Shown piece after piece: positions 3,595-41,655 of a DNA stretch of 64,000 bases (the first letter of the stretch is position 1; every line of letters begins with the position of its first letter). This stretch comes from Turneriella parva DSM 21527 (GTDB lineage Bacteria; Spirochaetota; Leptospiria; Turneriellales; Turneriellaceae): the NCBI RefSeq assembly GCF_000266885.1, contig NC_018020.1, positions 4,278,001 to 4,342,000 of the forward strand, written 5' to 3'. The notes beneath the pieces were generated by a model. That model was not told the origin of the DNA. It worked only from the letters and a program-made list of their open reading frames with translations, and made no database searches. The position numbers and the translations under genes are program-made.

Positions 3595-4658
3595 GGCAGA
3601 TTCCAAAACGAAGTGCGAAAGGGATAAAGTAATGTAAGGCCGCTCCCGGGTTTCGAGGTTGATTTGCGAAAAACGACCACGGAGCCCCCGGATGCGACCC
3701 TACGTTCAACTATCAAATGATGAAAGACTGCGTATAGAAGAAAGCCTTGCTGAGGGCCTCAAGGCCAGCCAAATCGCCAGAAATCTTAAGCGACACCCGA
3801 GCACTATTTTTCGAGAGATTCGGCGTAATTCAATGCCACGACATTACAGCGCGCGGTGCGCCAGAGACGAGGCGCGAAAGCGCCAGACTAATACCAACGC
3901 CGCGAAGGTTACACCAGAGCTTTGGTCAGAGATCGGAGCATCGCTCAAGTCGACGCTGTCACCAGAACAGATCGCAGGCCGCATGCGCCTAGAACGTTTC
4001 GACGGTGTCTGCATGCAGACGATTTACAATCATGTGCGCAAGAAATCCGGCACATCGAATTTTTATCGCCTGTGCCTGCGCCGCAAAGGCAAACCATACA
4101 AGCGCAAAGTGAGGATTGAGGCTGAAAACAAAGGGTTTTTTCGCATTCACGACCTGCCAGCCGAAGCTTTGACGCGACGCAAACCCGGCTACTGGGAGGG
4201 CGATTTGGTCGAGGGTAAAATGGGCACCGGGCAGATTGCAACTTTCGTCGAAAGGCATTCGCGTTACTTGCTCGCGGCGAAACTGGAGCGCAAATTGGTG
4301 ACACAGTTTAACGCTGCAGCGCGCGACCTATTCGCCGACATCGATAACGAACGGCTGCGGGGTATCATTTACGATCGGGGCACCGAGATGAGTGGCTACC
4401 GCGACCTGCAGCAAGTGCTGAACTGCGGCATCTACTTTTGTGACCCCGGCTCGCCATGGCAGAGAGGTACGAACGAAAACACGAACGGCCTGCTGCGCGA
4501 GTCTTTTCCCAAAGGCACAGATTTTCGGCGCATCGACCAGGAACAGGTTGACGCAGCGCTTAAATTACTAAATAACCGACCACGCAAGCGGCTGAATTAC
4601 CGAACCCCGGCCGAGGTCTACTTTCGCAGCCCTATCGCACTTCGTTTTGGAATGTAAG
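3595..4658 (+). mobile_element. IS30-family insertion sequence, copy 1 (intact, 1064 bp)
   Basis: Ends were set by comparing the two copies: the shared sequence runs from GGCAGATTCC to GGAATGTAAG. It is flanked by a 3-bp direct duplication, CAT at 3592-3594 and 4659-4661. Imperfect terminal inverted repeats contain ATTCCAAAACGAAGTGCGA on both ends. Joining the flanks recreates GGCGCA-TCG-TGCGCC, so the element inserted within a small palindrome. Confidence 0.92.
3692..4657 (+). CDS. IS30-family DDE transposase
   Basis: Catalyses transposition of the element. The start ATG at 3692 (MRPYVQLSNDERLRIEE) is preceded by GGAG 8 nt upstream and is preferred over a TTG at 3659. The N-terminus holds the IS30-type helix-turn-helix (SQIARNLKRHPSTIFREIRR). 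The catalytic core has D in YWEGDLVEG, D in IIYDRGTEM and E in the strongly conserved PWQRGTNENTNGLLRESF block, so the DDE triad appears complete. The length of 321 aa is normal for the family. The stop lies inside the right terminal repeat. Confidence 0.95.
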   Translation: MRPYVQLSNDERLRIEESLAEGLKASQIARNLKRHPSTIFREIRRNSMPRHYSARCARDEARKRQTNTNAAKVTPELWSEIGASLKSTLSPEQIAGRMRLERFDGVCMQTIYNHVRKKSGTSNFYRLCLRRKGKPYKRKVRIEAENKGFFRIHDLPAEALTRRKPGYWEGDLVEGKMGTGQIATFVERHSRYLLAAKLERKLVTQFNAAARDLFADIDNERLRGIIYDRGTEMSGYRDLQQVLNCGIYFCDPGSPWQRGTNENTNGLLRESFPKGTDFRRIDQEQVDAALKLLNNRPRKRLNYRTPAEVYFRSPIALRFGM

Positions 4659-5543: not shown

Positions 5544-6608
5544 CTTACATTCCAAAACGAAGTGCGATAGGGCTGCGAAAGTAGACCTCGGCCGGGGTTC
5601 GGTAATTCAGCCGCTTGCGTGGTCGGTTATTTAGTAATTTAAGCGCTGCGTCAACCTGTTCCTGGTCGATGCGCCGAAAATCTGTGCCTTTGGGAAAAGA
5701 CTCGCGCAGCAGGCCGTTCGTGTTTTCGTTCGTACCTCTCTGCCATGGCGAGCCGGGGTCACAAAAGTAGATGCCGCAGTTCAGCACTTGCTGCAGGTCG
5801 CGGTAGCCACTCATCTCGGTGCCCCGATCGTAAATGATACCCCGCAGCCGTTCGTTATCGATGTCGGCGAATAGGTCGCGCGCTGCAGCGTTAAACTGTG
5901 TCACCAATTTGCGCTCCAGTTTCGCCGCGAGCAAGTAACGCGAATGCCTTTCGACGAAAGTTGCAATCTGCCCGGTGCCCATTTTACCCTCGACCAAATC
6001 GCCCTCCCAGTAGCCGGGTTTGCGTCGCGTCAAAGCTTCGGCTGGCAGGTCGTGAATGCGAAAAAACCCTTTGTTTTCAGCCTCAATCCTCACTTTGCGC
6101 TTGTATGGTTTGCCTTTGCGGCGCAGGCACAGGCGATAAAAAATTCGATGTGCCGGATTTCTTGCGCACATGATTGTAAATCGTCTGCATGCAGACACCG
6201 TCGAAACGTTCTAGGCGCATGCGGCCTGCGATCTGTTCTGGTGACAGCGTCGACTTGAGCGATGCTCCGATCTCTGACCAAAGCTCTGGTGTAACCTTCG
6301 CGGCGTTGGTATTAGTCTGGCGCTTTCGCGCCTCGTCTCTGGCGCACCGCGCGCTGTAATGTCGTGGCATTGAATTACGCCGAATCTCTCGAAAAATAGT
6401 GCTCGGGTGTCGCTTAAGATTTCTGGCGATTTGGCTGGCCTTGAGGCCCTCAGCAAGGCTTTCTTCTATACGCAGTCTTTCATCATTTGATAGTTGAACG
6501 TAGGGTCGCATCCGGGGGCTCCGTGGTCGTTTTTCGCAAATCAACCTCGAAACCCGGGAGCGGCCTTACATTACTTTATCCCTTTCGCACTTCGTTTTGG
6601 AATCTGCC
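5544..6608 (-). mobile_element. IS30-family insertion sequence, copy 2 (1065 bp, inverted)
   Basis: Same ends as copy 1 but in the opposite orientation. It is flanked by a 3-bp duplication, AGC at 5541-5543 and 6609-6611. It is one base longer than copy 1. The encoded residues of the two copies are identical apart from the frameshift, so the copies are recent. The different target duplications show two independent insertions rather than one composite transposon. Confidence 0.92.
5545..6511 (-). pseudogene. IS30-family transposase, frameshifted
   Basis: The same protein as at 3692-4657, but broken. Copy 1 has five T in the tract after CACATCGAA; this copy has six T (A-run at about 6138-6143 on the plus strand). 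The extra base shifts the frame after about 124 residues (SGTSNF) and the shifted frame ends at 6083. The remaining 5545-6138 still encodes the catalytic D, D and E residues in the other frame. It is either a dead copy, a slippage-dependent product, or a homopolymer sequencing error. Confidence 0.88.
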
Positions 6609-6847: not shown

Positions 6848-6886
6848 GCATGGATGCCTAAATATTTGTTTCAGGAGCATCCATGC
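6848..6886 (+). promoter_or_regulatory. Leader inverted repeat covering the start codon of 6883
   Basis: GCATGGATGC at 6848-6857 is exactly complementary to GCATCCATGC at 6877-6886. The second arm contains the ATG (6883) and touches the AGGAG Shine-Dalgarno at 6873-6877. The folded RNA would hide the start codon, suggesting translational control. Confidence 0.55.
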
Positions 6887-7122
6887 ACACTACCCGTAAA
6901 CCCCCTATTGCCGCCAGCCGCAATAAGTTCAAGAAGGTTCTCTCGCAATATGTAAAACACCAGGGCCTCGACCTTGAAGTGACGCTGAAATCGGGCGAGC
7001 GCATCACGCTCTCGAAGATGCGTAAGATTGAAGGTGAAAACGTGGTTTCAACAACTCCGCGCGGCGTGCAGTCGCACCTCGCGATTCGCGACATTCAGCA
7101 TCTCGAAGTATTTGTTAATTGA
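6883..7122 (+). CDS. Small conserved-looking protein, possible Sm/SH3-like fold (79 aa)
   Basis: The start is ATG 6883 with AGGAG 5 nt upstream. The N-terminal 25 residues are basic (MHTTRKPPIAASRNKFKKVL). The rest alternates short hydrophobic strands (LDLEVTLKSGERITL, NVVSTTPRG, HLAIRDIQHLEVFV), a pattern compatible with a small beta barrel like the Sm/Hfq or SH3 folds. This is a guess from strand pattern, not from a recognised motif. The start codon is within an inverted repeat, and the stop lies inside the palindrome at 7119-7159. It converges with the DUF1858-type gene. Confidence 0.7.
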   Translation: MHTTRKPPIAASRNKFKKVLSQYVKHQGLDLEVTLKSGERITLSKMRKIEGENVVSTTPRGVQSHLAIRDIQHLEVFVN

Positions 7123-7159
7123 TTACATTTGGTGGGCTTTGCCCACCAAATGTAATCAA
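7119..7159. repeat. Palindrome between convergent genes (bidirectional terminator or REP-like)
   Basis: Perfect 19-bp arms with a TTT loop; the core GGTGGGC-TTT-GCCCACC is a common form of bacterial REP-like element. It overlaps the stop codons of both convergent genes. There is no clear U-run, so termination is only one option. Confidence 0.7.
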
Positions 7160-7407
7160 TCTTCAAGAAGTGCGTTCATGCTCGCCAGAAGTGCGTCGAG
7201 CGGAACGCCATAACCCATACAGATCTGTTCGAGCGTCTCAATTTCGTTGATGCCGCAGTGTGAACAGCCGCCGAGGTGAAAACTCGCGAGCACGAGGCCT
7301 GCTTCTGGGTGTATGCGCAGCGCTTCGCCTACCGTCGTCTGGCCCGTGAACTGGGGTTTGGTTTCTGTTGTCGTTTCTGCTTCGGTGACGGCACCACTGT
7401 TTTCCAT
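7156..7407 (-). CDS. DUF1858-type redox-disulfide domain protein (83 aa)
   Basis: The start is placed at MENSGAV (7407). The frame extends to 7443, but a promoter-like TATATT at 7414-7419 with TTGGGC 18 bp upstream would overlap that extension and suggests an almost leaderless transcript. The C-terminal 60 residues match the DUF1858/ScdA-N-type domain: TVGEALRIHPEAGLVLASFHLGGCSHCG. The CxxC (GGCSHCG) is the likely redox or metal site. Relatives accompany hybrid-cluster or iron-sulphur repair proteins. Here it stands alone, next to a SOR-like lipoprotein in the same direction (57 bp downstream of it). Confidence 0.85.
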   Translation of the reverse strand: MENSGAVTEAETTTETKPQFTGQTTVGEALRIHPEAGLVLASFHLGGCSHCGINEIETLEQICMGYGVPLDALLASMNALLED

Positions 7408-7464: not shown

Positions 7465-7974
7465 TTAGACGCCCAGATCAGAAACCCGCACCTCGGTCAC
7501 CCAAAGATCATGGTTATTACACTTGGCGAATACCTTCACCTTGCCCGACCAGGGTAAAAGTTTGATATCAAAATACGCATAGGTGAGCGGGTTACGCTCG
7601 CGCTTGATTGTCGTGACCGCGAGCTCTTTGCCCTGCATGTCCATAATGCCGATCTTTTCGATGTAGTGGCCCTGGTCGGCGTTCTTGAGCGGCACCTCGA
7701 CTATTACCGAAGGTTTGCCCTCATGCACAGACCGCTTGGCCGTTGGCGCATGCTCTTTCTCGATTTCAGTCCACTCGCGTGCATTGCCGATGCTATACTC
7801 TTTCTGCGGAATCAGCGGGCCATCGCCGGTTTGGTTTGAGTCTTTGCAACTCACTAGCCATGGGCTTAAGCCCATGGCTAGTGACATAAGAATAATTTTC
7901 GCGAATTTTGCACGTGATCTTTCAGCTATGGGCTTACGCCCATAGCCGAAATGTGTGGATTTAGTTTTCTTCAT
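7465..7974 (-). CDS. Superoxide reductase-like lipoprotein A (169 aa)
   Basis: The body resembles the iron-binding domain of superoxide reductase (desulfoferrodoxin family): EKEHAPT (H75), QGHYIEKIGI (H103) and KCNNHDLW (C152, H155). The usual HPM histidine six residues before H103 is replaced by Lys, so one of the four equatorial His ligands is missing. The N-terminus is a lipoprotein signal ending WLVSC (C43) preceded by an unusually long, basic stretch; much of it is encoded by two palindromes (7851-7884, 7925-7946). A good AGGA precedes ATG 7974. It lies 15 bp downstream of giant lipoprotein 2, same strand, probably one transcript. Enzymatic activity is uncertain. Confidence 0.8.
   Translation of the reverse strand: MKKTKSTHFGYGRKPIAERSRAKFAKIILMSLAMGLSPWLVSCKDSNQTGDGPLIPQKEYSIGNAREWTEIEKEHAPTAKRSVHEGKPSVIVEVPLKNADQGHYIEKIGIMDMQGKELAVTTIKRERNPLTYAYFDIKLLPWSGKVKVFAKCNNHDLWVTEVRVSDLGV
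7851..7884. repeat. 34-bp perfect palindrome inside a coding sequence
   Basis: Arms of 17 bp without a loop; the core is ATGGGCTTAAGCCCAT. It is translated as SLAMGLSPWLVS, the hydrophobic part of the signal peptide of the SOR-like lipoprotein A. Confidence 0.85.
7925..7946. repeat. Second palindrome of the same family inside the coding sequence
   Basis: GCTATGGGC and GCCCATAGC are separated by TTAC. It has the same ATGGGCTTA-n-GCCCAT core as the palindrome 40 bp away and is translated as GYGRKPIA. The pair resembles a REP doublet. Confidence 0.75.
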
Positions 7975-7989
7975 GTGATATCCTGCCTA

Positions 7990-10900
7990 TTAATTCTGAT
8001 CGTTCGCGGTGCGGTAGATTTTCATCGCATTCGAACCGTCGCGGGTGATGATCACGAGCCAATCTTTGCCTGCATCGTTCACGGTCACATGGCTGAAAAT
8101 CTTCTGGTTCGTACCGCCGCCGCCTGATTCGATGCCAGGAAGATTCACAATAGAGAAGCTGGTTTCGGCAGGTCTTGAACCCTGCGCAACCGAAGTCATG
8201 TCAGTTCGCCACACATTTGCCCCATACGTTGCGTTATCAAAGCCCACATAGAGATAGTTGCCGACGAATTCAAGCAGGGTTGCATGGGTGTTCGAAAGGC
8301 ACTGGTTCGGCGAAGTACCGCATGAGCCCGTATTTGAGGCCATGTTTGTCTTCCCCGTAGACCCGTACTCTGCCACGAGCAGCCATGCACCGGCACAGGC
8401 CGCGGCAGTACCGCAGTTCTTGGGTAGCATCCAGAGTTGCGGGACTTCATAGCCTTTCGGACAAACCTGTCGCTCCGTACGGAAGTCAAACCCACCCGCG
8501 CCGTTCGCACCGTTGCGATTTAGAGTCGTGGTGCTACAAGCATTACGCAACATATACAAGTCTCCATTTGGAGCAGTGCGCATGTAAGGGATTGCTTTAA
8601 GTGCTGGCACAAAAATATTGTAGGGCAGCACACAGTCCATTTCTATCAAACTTGTTGCGCAATTGCTTGACCCAGTAATCGCGGAATTCTGTGGGAAAGG
8701 GATCGAGATATATGTGTTCCACTTCGCAAGCGCATCAGGCGTAATATCTTCATAGTATTCGACGCATCCCGATGTCCCCGAAGCACAATTCAACGGCAAG
8801 GACGAGCGTGTCGACCTTGAGAGTATAGTTCGGACAATCCCCCCATCCGAATTAGTTGTCCGGGCTGACCCGAGCGTGCCGCTATAAAAACCTCCATTGG
8901 CGAGGTATAACTGCGATTCATTCCCACCGGCGCCATCATTGTCATGTTCGTACATCACGCTGATGGCATTGAGTACATCCGTGGCGGTATCGCCAACCTG
9001 GCCAGGGCCAGAATAGCCTGTAACGCCAACGAAAGAACCATTGCGCCTCAGGGCACCTGTTGTCGCAGACTGCGCCCCTATCCGAGTTAGCCGACTCATG
9101 TTTGGAAAACCAACATAGCCAAGATAGGCCGTGCCATCAGCGCAACCGCCGACCTTCATACAAACCCGGCCACCGCGACCGCCACCGCCCTGTTCTGCAC
9201 CAAAGTTGACAAATATCTGATCTTTGAACATGATCAAATTGAGCGAACGATAGGCGAAGGAGCCACCAGTATCCCCAGACCATTCTTCAGCGAAAGGGAA
9301 TACGGTGCTGCTGCTGGATTTTGTTGTGGTATGCCAAAAAGAGCGATAGTTACCTTGAGTATTCAGAGCGCCGATAAACATGCTCTCCGTGCCTCCAGCA
9401 GCGGTGCAGGCGGCACCGGTCATGGATGGCGTCGAGGTGCCCCCCACGCAGGCGGCATAAATCGCATCGACCCCACTAATCGTGTTGCTTGAAGAACAAG
9501 GGGTTCCTGGATACGTGATTGAAGCACAACCACTCCATTTCGTCGCGTAGCCATTGAAACTAGAATACGGCGTACCAAATGTCCCATCTGCATCAAGGGT
9601 AATCGTTTGCGCCGTCGTTAAACCAAAGTTCATCTCAAACAGCTTTGTTGAAGCACTATCCGCCCCTAAATATAATTTACTGTCATATATCACAATCGTG
9701 CCTGCGGTTGTGCCGTCGCCAAAGGGGTCACTAAACACCGGGCCACCGGTGAAGCCCGTCGGCGCATTCACAATAACCGGCTGCACGTTGTTAACACCAT
9801 TGTCGAGAATGATATTTGCCTGCAAATCGGTTACATTTTGCACCCGAATTTGGTGACCGCCGTTCGAAAGTGCGGGTACAAAGGTCAATTGAACCTGTGC
9901 GGTATTCGATTGCCGGGCGGCTGTGCTAACTCCAGTGCCATAAGCCTGCGCATCATATTTATAGTTACCGGCCACGTTTGCCGTAACGTTATCAACAGAT
10001 TCGCTGAATGTCAGCAGAATCACTGTCGACCCTGCATTGGCCGCGACGACGCTGGCGCCAATCAAGCTGGGAGGAGTAGTGTCTGTACCGCAGCGAAACG
10101 ACATCGTGCCCGGCAGGGCAATCGTATTGCTGTTTGAATCTTGCACCCCTGTAATCGTCAATTGGTATTGGCTCGTGTCGGTATCAAACGATTGCGTGAA
10201 GTCGACAGCATATTTGTTGCCCCCCATGCTGGTAACGACCGATGCACCATTTGAGTTCGGTGCCCCTGTACCGCTCGCACAGTCGGTGCCGGTTATACAT
10301 CCGGTAATTTTGTAATTCGAGGCGGTAGTCGCCGTGGCACCCACGGCCTGGTCATACTGAACAACAACACGCGTCGCTGCTGGTGCTGAGGGTGGAATAT
10401 TCGTCGGTGTAGGGCACTGCGTTTGCGTATCAGGGCTAATCGTCACCGCCGGCCTGCCATCACCATTAAACGTCGCAGAGTTGTTGGGCGACGACACATA
10501 CCTGCCCGCAGGCGCGGCTACGCCCTGAACCTGCGTCGCCAGTACAGTCGTCGTGTACGCCTGACCCTCGATCATCGGGTTCACCGTCAGAGTGTAGCTC
10601 GCAGAGTTGTTACCCGCGCCAGCAGTCGAAACCGAAGACAATACAGGCAGTGAAAGGTTCTGGTACTTCAGCGCACAGGCAGTCTGGTTCGCGCACTCGG
10701 CGGATGTAGCAAGTACCGATTCATTAAACGTGATCGTCAGCGTCGTCGCTGAAGTCGTCACGATGCTCGCAACCACAGGGTCGACAACACCGTTGAACTG
10801 TGCCTGGTTTGCGGGCAGGCCCGTCGTTGGGTTGGTATTGGTGATAAGGTTGATGTTCGTAAGATCACGCAGCGTGGTATTGACAGTCAGAGTATATGAA

Positions 10901-13900
10901 CTGCCACCTGTCTGGGTGCTCGTTGTCAGGTGAACTATGCGAAAGTTTGCACCGTCGCGTGCCGCAGCACTCACGGTTACGCCGCCGGTGAGCGTATAAT
11001 TACCCGCTACATTCGCCTGCGTGGCAGTCATAGGTTCGCTGAAAGTAACGTCAAGAGACGTCGCCCCAAGCGACACCGCACGCACCGTCACAGGCGCTGC
11101 GCCATCGGCTTCGGTGACGGTACCGACGAATACCTGGGCCATGGCTTGACCGCCGGTAACACCAGGCGTAGCCGTTGTTGTCAGGTCGGGCTTTGCGTCG
11201 GTATCGCAACCCGTCTGCGTAGAGGCATTGCAATCCAGAACATTTTCATTAAACCGAATGTAGATTACTGAATCGTTGGCCGTGTCGGTTGCAAAAGTGA
11301 CGGCGGTACCGTGAATTAAGCGTACACTAGTGTACCCTGCAACCAGCCAATCGGTAGTAACTGTACCCAGAGCATTGGCTACATAGCCTGGGAAAGTGCT
11401 ATCGGATATGTTCTTGCTAAAAGTTACCTGATACGTATCTATTTTCCCGTTGTAGTTGGTATCCAGGGCAAGCGCGCTCGTAATCGTTGGCGCCACATCG
11501 CTATACTCAACACCTGTGACTGAACGCTCGATTGCGGCGTTGCCGGCCACATCGGTACAGTTCCACCGAATGGTATAAAACGTGTCGTCAAGAAGTGGGT
11601 TGCTGGCAAAAGTAATATTCGTTTTTGCGCCGGCATTCAGCTCGCTGCCTGTGAGCGTGCGCACATGAGGACCACTCGGATGGCCTGTGCCGCTGGTGCT
11701 CTGCCACGAAACAGAAGCGCTGGCGCAGTCCTCTGAAAAAGTCATATTCACAGCGCTGCTCGATACAGGCGACGTACCCGATGTCGAATAGCCCGTAATG
11801 TCAGGGACTACCACATCTTTCACGCGCGTGTGTGTCGCTGCGGTACCCACGTTAGACGCAGGATCCGTTAACGTGACACTCAGCGTTACAGTGCCGTCAT
11901 TAAGGCCTGTCAGGTTGATACCCGTGAGCTGTTGCCCCGCAGAAGCCACAGTGCCACTACCAGTTACGTTCGTACCACCACCAGAGCTGCTAAACGTATA
12001 GTTGTACGTCGTACCGACTTCTGCTCCGGTGAACGTGAAAGAAACCGCTGTACGATTGGTGTTGTTGATGTAGCTCTGATCGATCGCTACAGAATAACCT
12101 GTCGGGACAGTCGTATCAACCGTCACCGTTGCGGCAGACGCCACCCATGCAGCAGTATTGCCTGCAAGGTCACGCGACTGAACGCACCCATAATACGCAG
12201 TTCCGTTCACAAGGCTGCCGACGCTAGTGCCAGAGTTTCCGGTCGTCGCACCCACACAGCCCGTCGTACAATCGTTCGCCGTACACATGCGCAGGTTGCT
12301 CGTCGTGATGTTTGTATCAGTACCAGCCGTGAACGTGATCGCTGCTGAAGTCGTGTTCACATGACTCGGTACTGAAACACCAGTCGCCGCAGTCGGAGCC
12401 GTGGTGTCGATAACAACGGTTGCAGCTGAAGCTACCCAGGCAGAGGTGCGACCTGCAAGGTCACGCGACTGAACGCACCCGTAATAAGCAGTGCCGTTCA
12501 CCAAAGAGCTGATCGTTGCCGGGGAGTTACTGGTCGTCGCGCCCACGCAACCGGTGCTGCAGTCATTCGAAGTACACATGCGAACGTTGCTCGTCGTGAT
12601 ATTCGTGTCTGTGCCGGCCGTAAAAGTGATATCAGCTGAAGTTGAAGTCGAATACGCAGGTACCGAAACCGCTGAAGGCGCGGTCGGGTTTGTCGTATCA
12701 ACTGTCACGGTCGCGGCGGAGGCTGTCCACGATGAAGTGTTGCCGGCAAGGTCGCGCGACTGTACGCAGCCATAATACGCTGTGCCATCCACAAGGCTGC
12801 TCACGTTCGCCGGTGAATTGCCTGTTGTGGCCCCTACGCAGCCGGTCGTACAATCATTCGCTGTACACATACGAACGTTACTCGTGGTAATATTGGTATC
12901 TGTACCGGCTGTAAACGTGACATCGGCATTGGCGGCCGTTGTATAAGTCGGCACTGTCACACCGCTGGCCGCTGTGGGCGCGGTCGTGTCGACAGTTACC
13001 GTCGTGGCAGAGGCCACATAAGATGAAGTATTGCCCGCCGTATCAACTGACTGAAGACAGATATAGTAAGCAGTGCCGTTTGAAAGACCGCTCACATCGA
13101 CCGGCGAAGCCACATCGGTGGTCGCTGTCAAACAGCCCGTCGCGCAGTCATTCGACGTACATGCGCGTACATTGTGCGTGCTAAAGTTCGCGTCGGCGCC
13201 ATTTGTATAGGTTACACCCGTAGCGGTTGTGCTGTTTGTGTAGGCAGGCGGCGTAATAGCCGCAGGCGCGGTTGGGTTCGTCGTATCGATAACGAAAGTC
13301 GGTGTCGCCGGCACTGAAGGAGTACTCAAAGTAAGCGTCGCAGTACCGTCAGCATTGGCGCCACCCGCGGCATTCACGGTATAGGTATATGTAAACACAT
13401 TCGGACCACCGGACATCGCCGTGGCTGCAATGTCATTCGTGCCCTGCTGATCGATAGCTATAGTCGGGGCGCTGCCAGGAGCTGATGCATAAGTCGCCGT
13501 TATCGTCAACGTACCCGTGCGAAATGGCCCGGTTGTAATGCCACCCTGATCGTAGGTAATAGTGCCTGAAACAACACCATTGATGTTAAGAGCCTTGTTC
13601 GTGGCCAATGAACCCGCGGCCGCAAGACCCGGAAGCGTCAAAACTGCAGCATTACCAGCGGCATCGGCGATAGAACCGCCATTCAAGGCAAGCGAACTCG
13701 TTGCATCGTAGTTCAAATCTGCATTCATATTGCCAGAGACGACCGTGTAGTTAAAAATCAGCGTATTCGTGCCGCTGCCCGATGCATAGTTTACTGCAGT
13801 CGTTGCCGGCGTACCCGTCGCAAGCGTCAGTTGCGGCGTACCTGTCACAAGAACAACTTCGGGAAACGTCACCCGAATATCCACAACCTGACCGATGCCG

Positions 13901-16900
13901 TAAGTACCATCAGCGAGCGTCGATGTCACATTCGTTGGCTGACCCGGAGCCACAGAATCATAGGTGATCGAAAACGTCTGTGAAAGATCGCTTACAAGAC
14001 CGGTTGCACCGACCGTCGCTATATTAAACTGATTGCTACCCTGCGTGATATTCGTATTGCTCGTGACACTCACCGTATAATTGCCTGAAGAGTTTGAAAC
14101 TGCGGTCGCAAGTTGTATCGGCGTGCGCAGAATGCCCGTACCATTGGTAGTCAGCGGAAGTACGGCGCCGCCTGGCAGCGACGCAAGCTGAAACGTATTG
14201 GCGGCAGAATTCACGACATAATAGGTCGTGTTGATCGAAACACCGGTAGTCAAATCAATCGTTGAAAATGTCACGGGCGTCCCGTTTGACATACCGTGAC
14301 CATTCAGAGTGACAATATCACCCGCGTCGGTGAAAGAAACTGTTGGTGAATAATACAGCACTACGGTTGTGTTCGCAGTCGTGGTGCCCGTGAACTGCAG
14401 GCCTGGGCTCGGAAAAGCAGCGCCGGTAATGTTGTCGCCCAAAGTGCCAGTGTCTGAAGCTACGGCCAGGCTTGCTGTCGCAGGCGCGGTCGCTGAACCA
14501 CTGAAAGTCGCAGAATTAGGAGTGCCAATTATATTGCCGGCTGTATCCGTTAAACCAGTCGCTGTCACCGTATAGCTGTTTGAAGAACCATAAGCACCAG
14601 GTGAAAGTGTAAGGCGTACCTTCGTCGTGTCTGCCTGACGAACTGCAGCTGAAACAGAATTGCCGCCCGTAACTGTATACTTCGTCGCGCAGGTGCCCGT
14701 TGAAGTGCATTCAACAGAAGTCAGGCCCATCGACTCTGTAAATGAAAGCTCAACAGTCGTCGAATTGATCAACACCGCCTGGTAGAGCGTCGGTGCCGTC
14801 ACCGATGAACCGATGCCAGAGAAGTTTACTGTCTGCGAGGACATGATACGTGGTGTGGGAGAAGCTCTGTCCTCAATGTTTCGTACCGTAAGCGCATACT
14901 GAACGGCACTTGTGCCAGGAGCACTCAGCGTCAGAGTACAATATGTATAGGGAGACGGACAATCAGCACTTGCGATACTACCTGAAAGCGCGGGCGAAAA
15001 TGAGTAGTTGTCAGTAAAATTTTCACCGCCGTTCACGCCATTAGAATCATTTACCGGCTCGCTGAAATAAATACGAACCTGCGTATTTGAAAGAGCAGAA
15101 ACTGACACCACCGTAGGTGATGTCTCATCTGTAGCGTCGGTACCAGAATAGCTGAAGTTGGCACTGTTGTTCGTACCGCCAATCGCATTGCCAGCAAGAT
15201 CAGAAACCGTGTTCACAGTTACCGTACACGTCGTTGGGCCAGCCTGTGATACCGTCGTCACTACAAGCTGAACAACACCTGCGCTTACCTGTATCGGAGT
15301 TCCTGTTACAACTGCAGGGCAGCCAACAGGGCCTGAAAGGACAAAATCACCATTATCAATCGTTGCATTGTTGAGTGTTTCATTAAAATTCACAATAACT
15401 GTCGTCGCTGCATTCGACGAAGCACTCGTCACCCGGGGTGCCTGCGTCGAAGTTGGGCCCGTAAATGTACCGCCGTTCGGTACGGTCGTCAGAAGGCCAT
15501 TGCCTGTGGCATCCTGGCCACCCGTCGGGGCAACATCGCTGTATGCCAGCGTGTAGGTCGTACCAGACGCCATTGCCGTAGCCAGGCTAATCCTGACATA
15601 TGGAGAATAATCGCCCGCAGCGCCACCTGTCGGAGAAAGTCTTACTTCAGATATGTCCGTTGCAACCAATGGTGATAGGGTATAATCAAAACCATCGCCC
15701 GCAGTTGTATCGTCGATCGATGACCGTGGCCCGATCGCCTCTGACCATTCTACCATTACTGTGCTGCTATCAACCGGGTAGATTGCCACAATATAAGGCG
15801 CACCGTCGCCGGTAAAGGTCGTGCTGCCGGTTGAAAGCGTGTTTGCAGGTGTTGCGGTGTCTTGAATACCGCCGTCATTGTTCGTGATCGAAAGAGAGTA
15901 TGGCGTCGTCGATTGCTCCGCTGTCGTCAACGTACACACATTGCCTGTGCAGCTGACATTCGTGATATTCAAAGCCGGTGACAGATTAAAATCCGCGATG
16001 CTCGCACCTGTCACGTTCTCTGAAAATGTTACGACAATCGTGGTGCTGTTTGTCGTCGTTACGCCCACAACCGCGGGCGGTGTCGTGTCGGTCGCGGCGC
16101 TGCTCGTGTAGCTGAAGATCGCGCGGTTCGTCGCTGCTGTCAGCGCAGAACCAAGCGCAGACGAAATCGCGGTATTCACCGTAACCGTGCAGGTTCCTGC
16201 TGTGCCTGAAGTCAGGCCTGTTAGAAGAATCTGGCTAGAGTTCACAACAGAAAATGTCGCAGCAGAGGCTGACAAAGCGCCGCAATTTGTAAAAGCATAA
16301 TTGGCGCGTGTCGTCAGAGGTGTACTGTTGACCGCCGGCGTCGGCTGAATGGCGTTCGCCATCGCCTGATCAAATGTTACCAGTACCGAAGTTGACGAAG
16401 TCGATACCGCGCTCAACACGCGTGGCGTCGGCGCCGTGTAGACAAACTGTGCAGAAGCAAATTCTGCCGCATTTGAATTGCCCCACATGTCGCGAAGACC
16501 TGTCTGCCCGCAGACCACATAGGTTGTTCCAACGGTTAGTACAGTGCTTGTTGTCAGGGTAACTTTTGCATAGTTGCTCACATCGCGAACGGCAGTGGCA
16601 ACATTCGTCGACGCACCGCCGCAAGTATTCGCACGTACAAAGTAATTCGTATTTGTCTCTCCGCTCGTTCGATCCACCGCTTCATTGAAAAAAACTTCCA
16701 GAGTGGTCGCAGATGTCGTACCTGCTATAACAGACACTGAACTGAACTGCGGCCCTGTCTGGTCCGCATTTGTCGGCGCTGTGAACGTCGCAGAGTTAGA
16801 GTTGCCGAGAGATGAACCATCCACACCCACAATATTCGAAGCGGTCGCCGTATAAACTGTACCAGATGTCTGCGGAAGTGTATCAATAAAAATGATACTT

Positions 16901-17217
16901 GAATTATTCGGGTCGCGCGAAGCTGCCAGAATCTGCAGAAGATTGCCATTCGGAGCAGTAATGCGGTAATTCGAAACAAGCTGCCCCGAAGCCAAAGTCA
17001 CAGGCTTCGAAAACGTCAGCATCACCCGCGTATTCGTCAGAGGGGTGGCTGTCAATAGCGCGATGTTCGTCGATGAATTCGCTCGAGCGCCGAAAACAAG
17101 GTCAAATGGCTGAAAAAATGTGCTGTAGGTCTTGCCGGTACAGTTCGCCGTCGACATGATAAGGCCGAGTGCGGCCACCTGCGTCAAAATGGTTCGTGCG
17201 AATTTCGTTTTAAGCAT
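7990..17217 (-). CDS. Giant Ig-like repeat lipoprotein 2 (3075 aa)
   Basis: The start ATG 17217 has AGGGAA 5 nt upstream. The signal MLKTKFARTILTQVAALG ends in a lipobox before C27 (TANCTGK). Residues about 50-1300 are tandem bacterial Ig-like modules (VRVTFTEP, VMLTFSKP-type motifs). Residues about 1310-1700 contain four near-identical 97-residue FN3-like units with paired cysteines (MCTANDCTTGCVGATT). Further Ig-like modules follow to about residue 2480. The last 550 residues change character: shorter strands, Gly-rich loops and YLYVGFDNATYG-type motifs suggesting a beta-propeller or lectin-like cap. The probable role is a long outer-surface fibre. The SOR-like lipoprotein A follows after 15 bp. 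Confidence 0.9.
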   Translation of the reverse strand: MLKTKFARTILTQVAALGLIMSTANCTGKTYSTFFQPFDLVFGARANSSTNIALLTATPLTNTRVMLTFSKPVTLASGQLVSNYRITAPNGNLLQILAASRDPNNSSIIFIDTLPQTSGTVYTATASNIVGVDGSSLGNSNSATFTAPTNADQTGPQFSSVSVIAGTTSATTLEVFFNEAVDRTSGETNTNYFVRANTCGGASTNVATAVRDVSNYAKVTLTTSTVLTVGTTYVVCGQTGLRDMWGNSNAAEFASAQFVYTAPTPRVLSAVSTSSTSVLVTFDQAMANAIQPTPAVNSTPLTTRANYAFTNCGALSASAATFSVVNSSQILLTGLTSGTAGTCTVTVNTAISSALGSALTAATNRAIFSYTSSAATDTTPPAVVGVTTTNSTTIVVTFSENVTGASIADFNLSPALNITNVSCTGNVCTLTTAEQSTTPYSLSITNNDGGIQDTATPANTLSTGSTTFTGDGAPYIVAIYPVDSSTVMVEWSEAIGPRSSIDDTTAGDGFDYTLSPLVATDISEVRLSPTGGAAGDYSPYVRISLATAMASGTTYTLAYSDVAPTGGQDATGNGLLTTVPNGGTFTGPTSTQAPRVTSASSNAATTVIVNFNETLNNATIDNGDFVLSGPVGCPAVVTGTPIQVSAGVVQLVVTTVSQAGPTTCTVTVNTVSDLAGNAIGGTNNSANFSYSGTDATDETSPTVVSVSALSNTQVRIYFSEPVNDSNGVNGGENFTDNYSFSPALSGSIASADCPSPYTYCTLTLSAPGTSAVQYALTVRNIEDRASPTPRIMSSQTVNFSGIGSSVTAPTLYQAVLINSTTVELSFTESMGLTSVECTSTGTCATKYTVTGGNSVSAAVRQADTTKVRLTLSPGAYGSSNSYTVTATGLTDTAGNIIGTPNSATFSGSATAPATASLAVASDTGTLGDNITGAAFPSPGLQFTGTTTANTTVVLYYSPTVSFTDAGDIVTLNGHGMSNGTPVTFSTIDLTTGVSINTTYYVVNSAANTFQLASLPGGAVLPLTTNGTGILRTPIQLATAVSNSSGNYTVSVTSNTNITQGSNQFNIATVGATGLVSDLSQTFSITYDSVAPGQPTNVTSTLADGTYGIGQVVDIRVTFPEVVLVTGTPQLTLATGTPATTAVNYASGSGTNTLIFNYTVVSGNMNADLNYDATSSLALNGGSIADAAGNAAVLTLPGLAAAGSLATNKALNINGVVSGTITYDQGGITTGPFRTGTLTITATYASAPGSAPTIAIDQQGTNDIAATAMSGGPNVFTYTYTVNAAGGANADGTATLTLSTPSVPATPTFVIDTTNPTAPAAITPPAYTNSTTATGVTYTNGADANFSTHNVRACTSNDCATGCLTATTDVASPVDVSGLSNGTAYYICLQSVDTAGNTSSYVASATTVTVDTTAPTAASGVTVPTYTTAANADVTFTAGTDTNITTSNVRMCTANDCTTGCVGATTGNSPANVSSLVDGTAYYGCVQSRDLAGNTSSWTASAATVTVDTTNPTAPSAVSVPAYSTSTSADITFTAGTDTNITTSNVRMCTSNDCSTGCVGATTSNSPATISSLVNGTAYYGCVQSRDLAGRTSAWVASAATVVIDTTAPTAATGVSVPSHVNTTSAAITFTAGTDTNITTSNLRMCTANDCTTGCVGATTGNSGTSVGSLVNGTAYYGCVQSRDLAGNTAAWVASAATVTVDTTVPTGYSVAIDQSYINNTNRTAVSFTFTGAEVGTTYNYTFSSSGGGTNVTGSGTVASAGQQLTGINLTGLNDGTVTLSVTLTDPASNVGTAATHTRVKDVVVPDITGYSTSGTSPVSSSAVNMTFSEDCASASVSWQSTSGTGHPSGPHVRTLTGSELNAGAKTNITFASNPLLDDTFYTIRWNCTDVAGNAAIERSVTGVEYSDVAPTITSALALDTNYNGKIDTYQVTFSKNISDSTFPGYVANALGTVTTDWLVAGYTSVRLIHGTAVTFATDTANDSVIYIRFNENVLDCNASTQTGCDTDAKPDLTTTATPGVTGGQAMAQVFVGTVTEADGAAPVTVRAVSLGATSLDVTFSEPMTATQANVAGNYTLTGGVTVSAAARDGANFRIVHLTTSTQTGGSSYTLTVNTTLRDLTNINLITNTNPTTGLPANQAQFNGVVDPVVASIVTTSATTLTITFNESVLATSAECANQTACALKYQNLSLPVLSSVSTAGAGNNSASYTLTVNPMIEGQAYTTTVLATQVQGVAAPAGRYVSSPNNSATFNGDGRPAVTISPDTQTQCPTPTNIPPSAPAATRVVVQYDQAVGATATTASNYKITGCITGTDCASGTGAPNSNGASVVTSMGGNKYAVDFTQSFDTDTSQYQLTITGVQDSNSNTIALPGTMSFRCGTDTTPPSLIGASVVAANAGSTVILLTFSESVDNVTANVAGNYKYDAQAYGTGVSTAARQSNTAQVQLTFVPALSNGGHQIRVQNVTDLQANIILDNGVNNVQPVIVNAPTGFTGGPVFSDPFGDGTTAGTIVIYDSKLYLGADSASTKLFEMNFGLTTAQTITLDADGTFGTPYSSFNGYATKWSGCASITYPGTPCSSSNTISGVDAIYAACVGGTSTPSMTGAACTAAGGTESMFIGALNTQGNYRSFWHTTTKSSSSTVFPFAEEWSGDTGGSFAYRSLNLIMFKDQIFVNFGAEQGGGGRGGRVCMKVGGCADGTAYLGYVGFPNMSRLTRIGAQSATTGALRRNGSFVGVTGYSGPGQVGDTATDVLNAISVMYEHDNDGAGGNESQLYLANGGFYSGTLGSARTTNSDGGIVRTILSRSTRSSLPLNCASGTSGCVEYYEDITPDALAKWNTYISIPFPQNSAITGSSNCATSLIEMDCVLPYNIFVPALKAIPYMRTAPNGDLYMLRNACSTTTLNRNGANGAGGFDFRTERQVCPKGYEVPQLWMLPKNCGTAAACAGAWLLVAEYGSTGKTNMASNTGSCGTSPNQCLSNTHATLLEFVGNYLYVGFDNATYGANVWRTDMTSVAQGSRPAETSFSIVNLPGIESGGGGTNQKIFSHVTVNDAGKDWLVIITRDGSNAMKIYRTANDQN
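12112..13285. repeat. Four tandem ~291-bp coding repeats
   Basis: Units begin near 12112, 12403, 12692 and 12986, each starting with a (V/T)DTT-type linker and encoding about 97 residues. Recurring DNA blocks are visible, for example AAGGTCACGCGACTGAACGC at about 12166 and again at 12460. Each protein unit has four conserved Cys, likely forming two disulphides. Confidence 0.8.
15104..15731. repeat. Near-identical direct repeat, copy B (within giant lipoprotein 2)
   Basis: Partner of 970-1597; about 99% identical by eye over about 628 bp at an offset of 14,134 bp. Direct orientation means recombination would delete the whole tmRNA/tRNA-Phe island. Confidence 0.8.
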
Positions 17218-17355: not shown

Positions 17356-17835
17356 ATGAATATTAGATCAGCTTGTATTATTGCCGCCGCGCTTTTGACC
17401 AGCATGTGCGGCAAATCGGGCGGCACCGACGGATCGTCGGGCACTGCAACGGCTTCAGCGCCCGCAAGCCAGGTGCCCGCCGAGAACTACCACACTAGCG
17501 AAAACCCGGGCAAATGGAAAGAGCGTGAACCTGAGCACCGCATTCAGGTGAGCGAAAGCCGCGTTTTCACCGAGGGCAAAAAAAAGATACGGGAGCTCAG
17601 CGTGTTTGTTTCGCTGCAAGGCGACCCACAGCACTACCTCGAAGCGGGCGTCATTATGGACAGCGCGCTCCAGAAAGAATTCGCCAAAGTCACATTCAAG
17701 CCCGGCACACCGCAATACGTATTCAAACTGCAACTGCCCGCCGACGAACCGAACGCTGCTTACGTGATCGTCAAATGCAACCAGCACGACATGTGGTTGA
17801 AAAGAGTGGAGCCTTTGCCGAGAGATAAACCGTAA
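17356..17835 (+). CDS. Superoxide reductase-like lipoprotein B (159 aa)
   Basis: Paralogue of the lipoprotein at 7465-7974, divergent from giant lipoprotein 2. The lipobox LTSMC puts the lipidated Cys at residue 18, followed by a Ser/Thr/Ala linker. The SOR-like ligands are PEHRIQV (H61), DPQHYLEAG (H93) and VKCNQHDMW (C141, H144). The His normally found six residues before H93 is Leu, so the five-ligand iron site would be incomplete, as in paralogue A. The rest of the beta-sandwich is of normal length. It is either an atypical surface superoxide/peroxide-reactive protein or a repurposed metal-binding scaffold. The start ATG 17356 is the only sensible one. Confidence 0.8.
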   Translation: MNIRSACIIAAALLTSMCGKSGGTDGSSGTATASAPASQVPAENYHTSENPGKWKEREPEHRIQVSESRVFTEGKKKIRELSVFVSLQGDPQHYLEAGVIMDSALQKEFAKVTFKPGTPQYVFKLQLPADEPNAAYVIVKCNQHDMWLKRVEPLPRDKP

Positions 17836-17848
17836 TCGCCGGCAGGTG

Positions 17849-17890
17849 CGGTCATGTAGGGGTAGGTTTAAACCTACCCCTACATGACCG
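17849..17890. repeat. 42-bp perfect palindrome, left of HUH transposase
   Basis: Two 21-bp arms without a loop. The 30-bp core (from TGTAGGGGTAGGTTT to its complement) is shared exactly with 18293-18338. Confidence 0.9.
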
Positions 17891-17911: not shown

Positions 17912-18274
17912 ATGAACACACGCAACAAATGGGATCTGCTGTATCATCTCGTCTTCGGCACAAAGTCGAAGGCCGCGTTTCTGACCCCTGAAGTCATAAC
18001 CGACTTACAACTTTTGTTCGCGATCAAGGTGAAAGAACTGCGTGGCGACATTCTGGCCTGCGGCGGCCACGAAGATCATGTTCATCTCTTAGTTTCGATG
18101 CCGCCTAGAGTATCCGTTTCTGAACTTGTCAAGAACCTCAAAGGTTACTCATCGTTCATGCGCCCCGATATCATCTGGCAACGCGGCTTCGGCGCCTTCA
18201 CAGTCGATCGCCGTTCGGTCGACGCGATCATCAAATATATTCAGAATCAAGAAAATCACCACGGTAGAAAATAA
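17912..18274 (+). CDS. tnpA: Small IS200/IS605-type (Y1, HUH) transposase (120 aa)
   Basis: A single-strand transposase of the Y1_Tnp family. The HUH motif is DHVHLLVSMPP (HVH). The following SVSELVKNLKGYSSF block is typical. The catalytic Tyr is expected in IIKYIQNQENHH, near the C-terminus. The family is usually about 140-150 aa; this protein lacks the first dozen and last 20-30 residues but keeps all recognisable catalytic motifs. It is flanked on both sides by palindromes of one family that are its probable substrates or relics. It lies between a SOR-like lipoprotein and giant lipoprotein 3. Confidence 0.88.
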   Translation: MNTRNKWDLLYHLVFGTKSKAAFLTPEVITDLQLLFAIKVKELRGDILACGGHEDHVHLLVSMPPRVSVSELVKNLKGYSSFMRPDIIWQRGFGAFTVDRRSVDAIIKYIQNQENHHGRK

Positions 18275-18292: not shown

Positions 18293-18338
18293 ATCACCTT
18301 TGTAGGGGTAGGTTTAAACCTACCCCTACAAAGGTGAT
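18293..18338. repeat. 46-bp perfect palindrome, right of HUH transposase
   Basis: Two 23-bp arms without a loop, 19 bp after the transposase stop. The arms outside the shared 30-bp core differ from the left palindrome yet remain self-complementary, implying that selection or copying maintains the palindrome itself. Confidence 0.9.
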
Positions 18339-41453: not shown

Positions 41454-41514
<61 letters not shown>

Positions 41515-41527
<13 letters not shown>

Positions 41528-41562
41528 TCGTGGCCGCCATCGGCCACGAGGCGACGTAGCTC
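41515..41562. repeat. 22-bp-arm palindrome overlapping the 5' end of tRNA-Met
   Basis: Arms at 41515-41536 and 41541-41562 are perfectly complementary with a CCAT loop. The inner arm includes tRNA-Met positions 1-13, so the upstream flank holds an inverted copy of the tRNA start. Confidence 0.9.
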
Positions 41563-41610
41563 CGCTTCCGGTGCTACGAGCCATTCAGCCAATGCCGACT
41601 TACGCTTCAG

Positions 41611-41650
41611 CACTATCAAACGGGGGGCATGTGCCCCCCGTTTGATAGTG
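41611..41650. repeat. 40-bp palindrome between the two Met tRNAs
   Basis: 19-bp perfect arms with a 2-nt centre; the core is CGGGGGGCA/TGCCCCCCG. It lies 5 bp downstream of tRNA-fMet. It could terminate or process the tRNA transcript. No U-run follows. Confidence 0.85.
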
Positions 41651-41655
41651 CAATT

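Follow-up and report, generated by a model that had tools for sequence, protein, structure and literature searches.

How does a repeated palindrome come to encode part of a bacterial signal peptide? The question is raised by a predicted lipoprotein gene in a 64,000-nucleotide stretch of DNA from Turneriella parva DSM 21527 (hereafter the window). The type strain H of this species is described as a free-living spirochaete (PMC3746428). The genome analysed here comprises 4,409,302 bases in two contigs. Two palindromes lie in the leader of the gene and are read in frame. They are repeated, similar palindromes recur in the signal peptides of three lipoprotein genes, three of the palindrome families flank transposase genes, and the arms of the palindromes are specific to each site. 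We consider it probable that mobile-type palindromes linked to IS200-type transposases landed in an existing lipoprotein signal, remodelled it and grew their arms by inverted copying of the flanking DNA.

The lipoprotein gene and the palindromes in its leader

7465..7974, minus strand: predicted lipoprotein gene, 169 amino acids, with a superoxide-reductase-like domain (weak family match; from the open reading frame list and profile matches)
7849..7974, minus strand: predicted signal-peptide-coding region, 42 codons; the Cys43 codon is 7846-7848
7851..7884, minus strand: palindrome 1 (family A), 17-bp perfect arms, no loop; codes SLAMGLSPWLV(S), the hydrophobic region and lipobox positions -3 to -1
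7920..7951, minus strand: palindrome 2 (family A, core variant TTACG), 13/14 arm pairs, loop of 4; codes (F)GYGRKPIA(E), within the positively charged n-region

The halves of palindrome 1, TCACTAGCCATGGGCTT and AAGCCCATGGCTAGTGA, are 100% complementary (17/17 arm pairs) and meet without a loop. Palindromes 1 and 2 share the core ATGGGCTTA-n-GCCCAT. Palindrome 1 corresponds to codons 31-42 of the minus-strand open reading frame (ORF) 7974-7465 (SLAMGLSPWLVS), with Cys43 as the next residue, while palindrome 2 corresponds to codons 9-18 (FGYGRKPIAE) of the same ORF. The N-terminus of the 169-amino-acid product reads MKKTKSTHFGYGRKPIAERSRAKFAKIILMSLAMGLSPWLVSC-KDSN... A preliminary description of this DNA had reported both palindromes, with their cores, peptides and reading frame, and all of this was borne out; palindrome 1 does encode much of the hydrophobic region together with lipobox positions -3 to -1.

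The protein is predicted to be a lipoprotein from its lipobox, LVS-C, and from a Cys found without exception (7/7 rows) in an alignment of the target, a paralogue and five homologues. A crude rule, taken together with the invariant Cys, recovers a Lys/Arg-containing n-region, a hydrophobic region and a lipobox with Cys. The protein is presumably exported. The mature part likely contains a superoxide-reductase domain, and the family alignment has invariant Cys, His and CxxHDxW-type columns. The assignment is nonetheless a weak one, because the match to TIGR00332 (E=0.0024) falls under the cut-off of that family, the best PDB profile match, a superoxide reductase, has E=0.0057, and a Pfam search of the 169-amino-acid protein returned no match.

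Misannotated start codons are suspected by Di Nocera et al. (2013) for many N-terminal repetitive extragenic palindromic sequences (REPs; PMC3733652). With a misannotated start here, the palindromes would lie in the 5' untranslated region; Met30 is a possible later start. However, the invariant Cys43 directly follows palindrome 1, so no start beyond palindrome 1 leaves a signal peptide. Met30 is preceded by no evident ribosome-binding sequence, whereas the first ATG has AGGA 6 nt ahead of it and the stop codon of the preceding gene 15 nt upstream (all judged by eye). The start at the first ATG looks real on these grounds, and we regard misannotation as very improbable. The preceding gene is the following:

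7990..17217, minus strand: giant gene with immunoglobulin-like repeats (Pfam Big_5), directly upstream of the lipoprotein gene on the same strand

An ordinary terminator was considered and rejected, as the palindromes lie inside an ORF and no terminator-like site is predicted there. The promoter and terminator search gave nothing useful.

Palindrome families in the genome

The preliminary description had also called the palindrome repetitive, and it is: the exact family A core, ATGGGCTTANGCCCAT, occurs in 7 copies at 4 loci genome-wide (contig 1: 986047, 1145749, 3409666, 3409793, 3410996, 4285860 and 4285928), as against 0 for the reversed control pattern. Within the window, 5 matches to the core with at most 3 mismatches were found where 1.09 were expected, and 0/100 shuffles reached 5. 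Together, these controls rule out a chance origin. A looser pattern, TGGGCTTN{1,4}GCCCA, returned the same sites and two long terminator-looking hairpins, but is uninformative because its control count was not lower (8 and 9).

Other families are built in the same zero-loop manner. The family B core, CACGGGTTTAAACCCGTG, is present in 4 exact copies and 2 with two mismatches; the family C core, GTAGGGGTAGGTTTAAACCTACCCCTAC, in 12 exact copies and 1 with one mismatch; and the family D core, GCCNNNGAATTAATTCNNNGGC, in 20 exact copies and 2 with one mismatch, each with a genome-wide control count of 0. Family E is a single copy from a 400-kb sample, the extent of the search for it. The set analysed below thus comprises 49 copies (A 7, B 6, C 13, D 22 and E 1). 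With 2 positions left free, the family C core was found among other genome contigs in 1 stretch, from a Spirochaetota metagenome-assembled genome.

Long palindromes of any kind were denser in T. parva (42 in 400 kb) than in G006, a species of the genus (14 in 200 kb), and in the genome G018 (4 in 200 kb), and shuffled sequence had 0. Long hairpins with a loop of 3 are common in T. parva, accounting for 14/42 palindromes of the 400-kb sample. One hairpin in the window (7118-7160), with 20 perfect arm pairs and the loop TTT, contains the stop codon of ORF 6883-7122. Two more long, near-perfect palindromes neighbour each other at 41513-41564 and 41610-41651, with arms of 24 and 20. What appears to be a further, similarly built family, zero-loop palindromes whose core resembles GTAGAGACGCA, is present in two species of the genus (L154:3641-3670, 3717-3750 and 16623-16652 in G006; L063:17667-17696).

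Arms specific to each site

Perfect palindromy continues at least 6 bp beyond the core in 41/49 copies (mean over all 49, 7.2 bp) and stops short of 6 bp in the other 8/49. When the left flank of one copy was paired with the right flank of another copy of the same family, such an extension was seen in 7/690 swapped pairs, and 0/10,000 permutations matched the observed arm-extension total. Within a copy, complementarity is at least 0.83 per position to 6 bp past the core in all four families and reaches background by ~10-13 bp. Between copies, the identity of the outer arms is mostly 0.2-0.5, save at a few conserved positions near the core. In the lipoprotein gene, the arms TCACTAGCC and GGCTAGTGA code SLA on one side and WLVS on the other, so that the lipobox mirrors the stretch with which the hydrophobic region begins.

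Perfect, site-specific arms of ~6-9 bp look like a new feature, and suggest that flanking DNA was copied in inverted form, either during insertion or later. The arms may be formed together with insertion or by subsequent growth, or may be inverted repeats that were already there and served as targets. A more specific proposal, which we offer tentatively and think somewhat doubtful, is that insertion of IS200-linked palindromes is coupled to an inverted copy of ~6-9 bp of flank rather than to a direct target duplication. The element would then end as the centre of a longer, site-specific palindrome, and in signal-peptide genes the lipobox as well as the beginning of the hydrophobic region would be written by mirror copying. 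We rejected a slow, compensated drift of one long element as a source of the arms, given that the copies share an almost unchanged core but have unrelated arms.

Transposase genes flanked by the palindromes

17849..17890, no strand assigned: family C palindrome on the left side of the transposase gene, with core GTAGGGGTAGGTTTAAACCTACCCCTAC and arms of 21 bp
17912..18274, plus strand: IS200/IS605-type Y1 transposase gene, 120 amino acids (PF01797, E=1.9e-22)
18293..18338, no strand assigned: family C palindrome on the right side of the transposase gene, with arms of 23 bp; its outer arms differ from those of the left copy

Pfam Y1_Tnp matches 3 genes genome-wide, and each is flanked on both sides by a palindrome family of its own: C at 17912-18274 in the window, B at C1:24872 and D at C1:1284493. 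Solitary copies away from the Y1 genes are present in all three families. The window transposase scores 77.9 bits against NCBIfam transpos_IS200 (cut-off 55) and 19.5 bits against REP_Tyr_transpos (cut-off 80); all three transposases pass the former (73-79 bits) and fail the latter (19.5-28.1 bits). The catalytic HUH motif and tyrosine are covered by the whole-domain profile match, the motif H.H.L having been used in the search and the tyrosine located by eye.

The C-terminal residues of two of the three transposases are palindrome-coded. At L018:1357-1839 a family B palindrome supplies the C-terminal HGFKPVA, and the end of the L019 transposase runs into a family D palindrome. At 5545-6544 the window also holds a transposase-like gene that is broken up into overlapping frames, 5545-6198 and 6083-6544, and appears IS30-like by eye.

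Copies within genes and signal peptides

Eight of the 49 copies lie wholly within ORFs, in frame, across 6 genes. With names assigned from the translations, these are the lipoprotein gene 7465-7974 (2 copies), the lipoprotein genes L002 (family B) and L102 (family D), and genes for an IcmF-type mutase (one B and one D), a MacB-like ABC transporter (D) and an ATPase (D). The majority of the remaining copies are intergenic, and several overlap gene ends and provide stop codons.

Half of the fully intragenic copies (4/8, in 3/6 genes) fall within predicted signal peptides. L002 and L102 are the two further lipoproteins with palindromes at this position (C1:1145841 and C1:4142609). The L002 signal has the sequence MKKTRTNNRIRIAILL-TVATGLNPWLP-VFIQC and follows closely on a family A copy that shares its reading frame, and the L102 signal reads MVFKKYGAAIL-QHNCPRINSWAIML-IALFTLNC (both starts chosen by eye). 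T. parva is reported to have 508 genes with signal peptides (PMC3746428), from which signal-peptide codons are estimated to make up ~0.9-1.6% of coding DNA. The probability that at least 3 of 7 independent sites fall in signal peptides is then 3e-5 to 1.4e-4, a post hoc figure that fits preference and tolerance alike. The in-frame palindromes of the IcmF-type mutase, the ABC transporter and the ATPase lie in linkers, inside genes of conserved function, and the mutase and ATPase linkers are variable among relatives. These variable linkers favour tolerance of the palindromes over a preference. The mutase linker holds palindromes in three species of the genus, T. parva included (L110:1688-1734; L114:1726-1757 and 1785-1824; C1:2121990 and 2122085), and these are unrelated from one species to the next.

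It is conceivable that the palindromes are kept for RNA hairpins, which would attenuate translation or stabilise the mRNA close to the start codon, and that the signal peptide they encode is incidental. The 186-nt leader does fold at -63.8 kcal/mol, against a shuffle mean of -37.7 (z -6.5), with both hairpins formed, but stable folding is automatic in any palindrome. Further, no Rfam family matches, and the copies occupy signal peptides, linkers, gene ends and intergenic DNA without the shared position that a regulator needs. We regard this explanation as unlikely.

Homologues of the lipoprotein

Homologues of the lipoprotein were found in 15/61 genomes, its own included. There are 42 residues before the Cys in the T. 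parva protein, against 13-25 in five homologues and 17 in the paralogue encoded in the window (17356-17835). A perfect N-terminal palindrome with an arm longer than 7 is missing from 16/17 homologous or paralogous N-termini. The exception is the paralogue L042 of G009, in a different genus, where a perfect 26-bp palindrome of its own (13-bp arms) codes part of the N-terminus. By a crude measure, the best 10-residue hydropathy of the T. parva signal drops from 2.48 to 1.32 when the palindrome-coded residues are removed.

The preliminary description had attributed the unusual length of the signal to the element. The comparison with the homologues and the paralogue agrees with this, but the length itself is only mildly unusual, since 5/31 of the lipoproteins crudely called in the 400-kb sample have a signal of more than 42 residues. 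It had further suggested that the repeat was recruited as an export signal. If this is taken to mean the creation of export, it does not hold, as homologues without palindromes already have lipoprotein signals. For the same reason, a fair statement is that the element invaded and rebuilt a pre-existing lipoprotein signal, of which it now provides much, and did not create export.

Arm changes among relatives

An orthologous copy of family D in the relative G003 lies between a lipoprotein gene and a sucC-like gene. Its 22-bp core is identical to that in T. parva and the left flank is conserved, but the outer arms pair at 8/8 positions in T. parva and at 5/8 in G003. Arms are therefore altered once the element has inserted, and the difference is explained equally well by growth in T. 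parva and by decay in G003. Core positions 4-6 also differ among family D copies in matched fashion. In addition, a terminator orthologous between T. parva and G003 (L070:7893-7927 and L251:81-117) has several arm changes, each matched on the opposite arm, and the loop is TTT in one and AAA in the other; another terminator common to the two is unchanged. Template switching from arm to arm would explain the site-specific arms, the matched core variation, the altered terminator and the density of palindromes.

Could such switching account for the palindromes without any mobility? They would then have arisen locally, small inverted repeats being extended by template-switch (quasipalindrome) correction, with the shared core arising by convergence or conversion. 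The perfect site-specific arms, the matched variation at family D core positions 4-6 and the terminator with its both-arm changes and inverted TTT/AAA loop all favour this, and template switching has been proposed for coding palindromes of nematomorph mitochondria (PMC6649704). On the other hand, identical 16-28-bp cores occur at unlinked loci and are absent from the reversed control, and there is one family per transposase gene. Identical unlinked cores and family-specific transposases require dispersal of sequence beyond local growth, making growth in place alone quite unlikely.

A family D-like pattern with at most 2 mismatches gave 21 matches in six relatives, and the control gave 2, one each in G002 and G006. 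Searches for a site in its pre-insertion state gave little. The IcmF-type mutase and ATPase linkers of relatives are too variable to show it. At the RidA-aconitase site the neighbouring gene differs in G003, though a weak G003 match there led to the sucC-like site. Synteny between the G003 copy L221 and the T. parva copy L055 stops before the palindrome, and at the family D site 1154039 the left side is not orthologous in G003. No further filled and empty site pair for these families was found in 40 G003 contigs (179,119 bases).

Comparison with known systems

The closest precedent for the signal peptide is the RU-2/YAPAL repeat of Yersinia gene YPO1552 (Delihas 2007; PMC2759123), described as forming part of a signal peptide where homologues have signals unrelated to the repeat. 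The Yersinia RU-2 element is ~168 bp, whereas the T. parva palindromes are 32-34 bp, come from three families, lie in three lipoprotein genes and have site-specific arms. The signal-peptide case in T. parva is well documented, belongs to a kind already known and is strengthened by recurrence in three genes.

TIRtrons, with their TIRYT transposases, are described as Y1 genes flanked by untagged repeats, some of them self-complementary (Di Nocera et al. 2013; PMC3733652). The resemblance lies in a tyrosine transposase gene inside its own repeat family with dispersed solitary copies, an arrangement found for families B, C and D and not for A. Intragenic copies are also known for REPs (PMC3733652). 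The TIRtron account as available differs in describing no arms that vary from site to site and match the flank, and the available text of PMC3733652 makes no mention of signal peptides, lipoproteins, Turneriella or Leptospira.

The preliminary description had likened the palindromes to REPs, but in the strict sense the term does not apply. Recognition of REPs by TnpAREP, the REP-associated tyrosine transposase (RAYT), is described in PMC8266576. Copies of families A-E are zero-loop with variable outer arms and have no conserved unpaired GTAG/CGTC, the GTAG of family C being paired, and 3/3 T. parva transposases score as IS200-type and not as REP-associated.

The Rickettsia palindromic elements (Ogata et al. 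2000, via PMC2229807 and PMC6649704) are likewise in-frame palindromic repeats that do not destroy their genes. They are longer (105-146 bp), and neither a transposase link nor a signal-peptide role is described for them in these sources. The nematomorph palindromes also lie in coding DNA, as perfect inverted repeats with arms that change in concert, but they are mitochondrial and up to 284 bp, and PMC6649704 as available describes no shared mobile core or transposase. A search of open-licence papers found no account of site-specific palindrome arms, an absence that is weak.

Proposed origin of the signal peptide

We propose that both palindromes represent a small palindromic element, non-autonomous and of the kind linked to IS200-type transposases, and that they inserted where a gene codes the signal peptide of a lipoprotein that was already exported. 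Depending on the phase, in-frame reading gives the hydrophobic AMGLSPWL or the charged YGRKPIA. The signal peptide would have tolerated the element, because such a signal needs just charge, hydrophobicity and a lipobox, and may later have come to depend on it. Palindrome 1 now provides most of the hydrophobic region along with the lipobox residues LVS, while the n-region is lengthened by palindrome 2. During or after insertion, one flank would have been copied, inverted, to the other side, so that the palindrome grew outwards and the arms past the core became site-specific.

Several points weigh against this proposal. The transposases are IS200-type and not RAYTs. No family A copy (0/7) lies beside a Y1 gene, so the mobility of family A is proposed by analogy with families B, C and D. 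The signal-peptide enrichment is post hoc and can reflect the survival of harmless insertions. No empty orthologous site was found for the lipoprotein gene: the two same-genus orthologues are both cut short by contig ends, in the nearest, that of G001 (69% identity), a single codon ahead of the Cys, and likewise in G004, so the former neither supports nor contradicts entry of the element. Finally, 4/11 palindromic family D-like copies inspected in five relatives extend at least 6 bp, against 20/22 of the T. parva copies of family D, a difference which may mean that perfect arms are peculiar to this species or that they decay as copies age.

Signal peptides are known to accept nearly any hydrophobic sequence, and a mobile palindrome seems to have exploited this tolerance repeatedly within one genome. 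The T. parva set thereby offers a natural series for how mobile DNA turns into coding sequence. The site-specific arms have the wider bearing and are the feature that specialists would find surprising: they suggest that a transposase-linked palindrome grows by reverse copying of its flank, which would explain at the DNA level why palindromes are found in coding regions.
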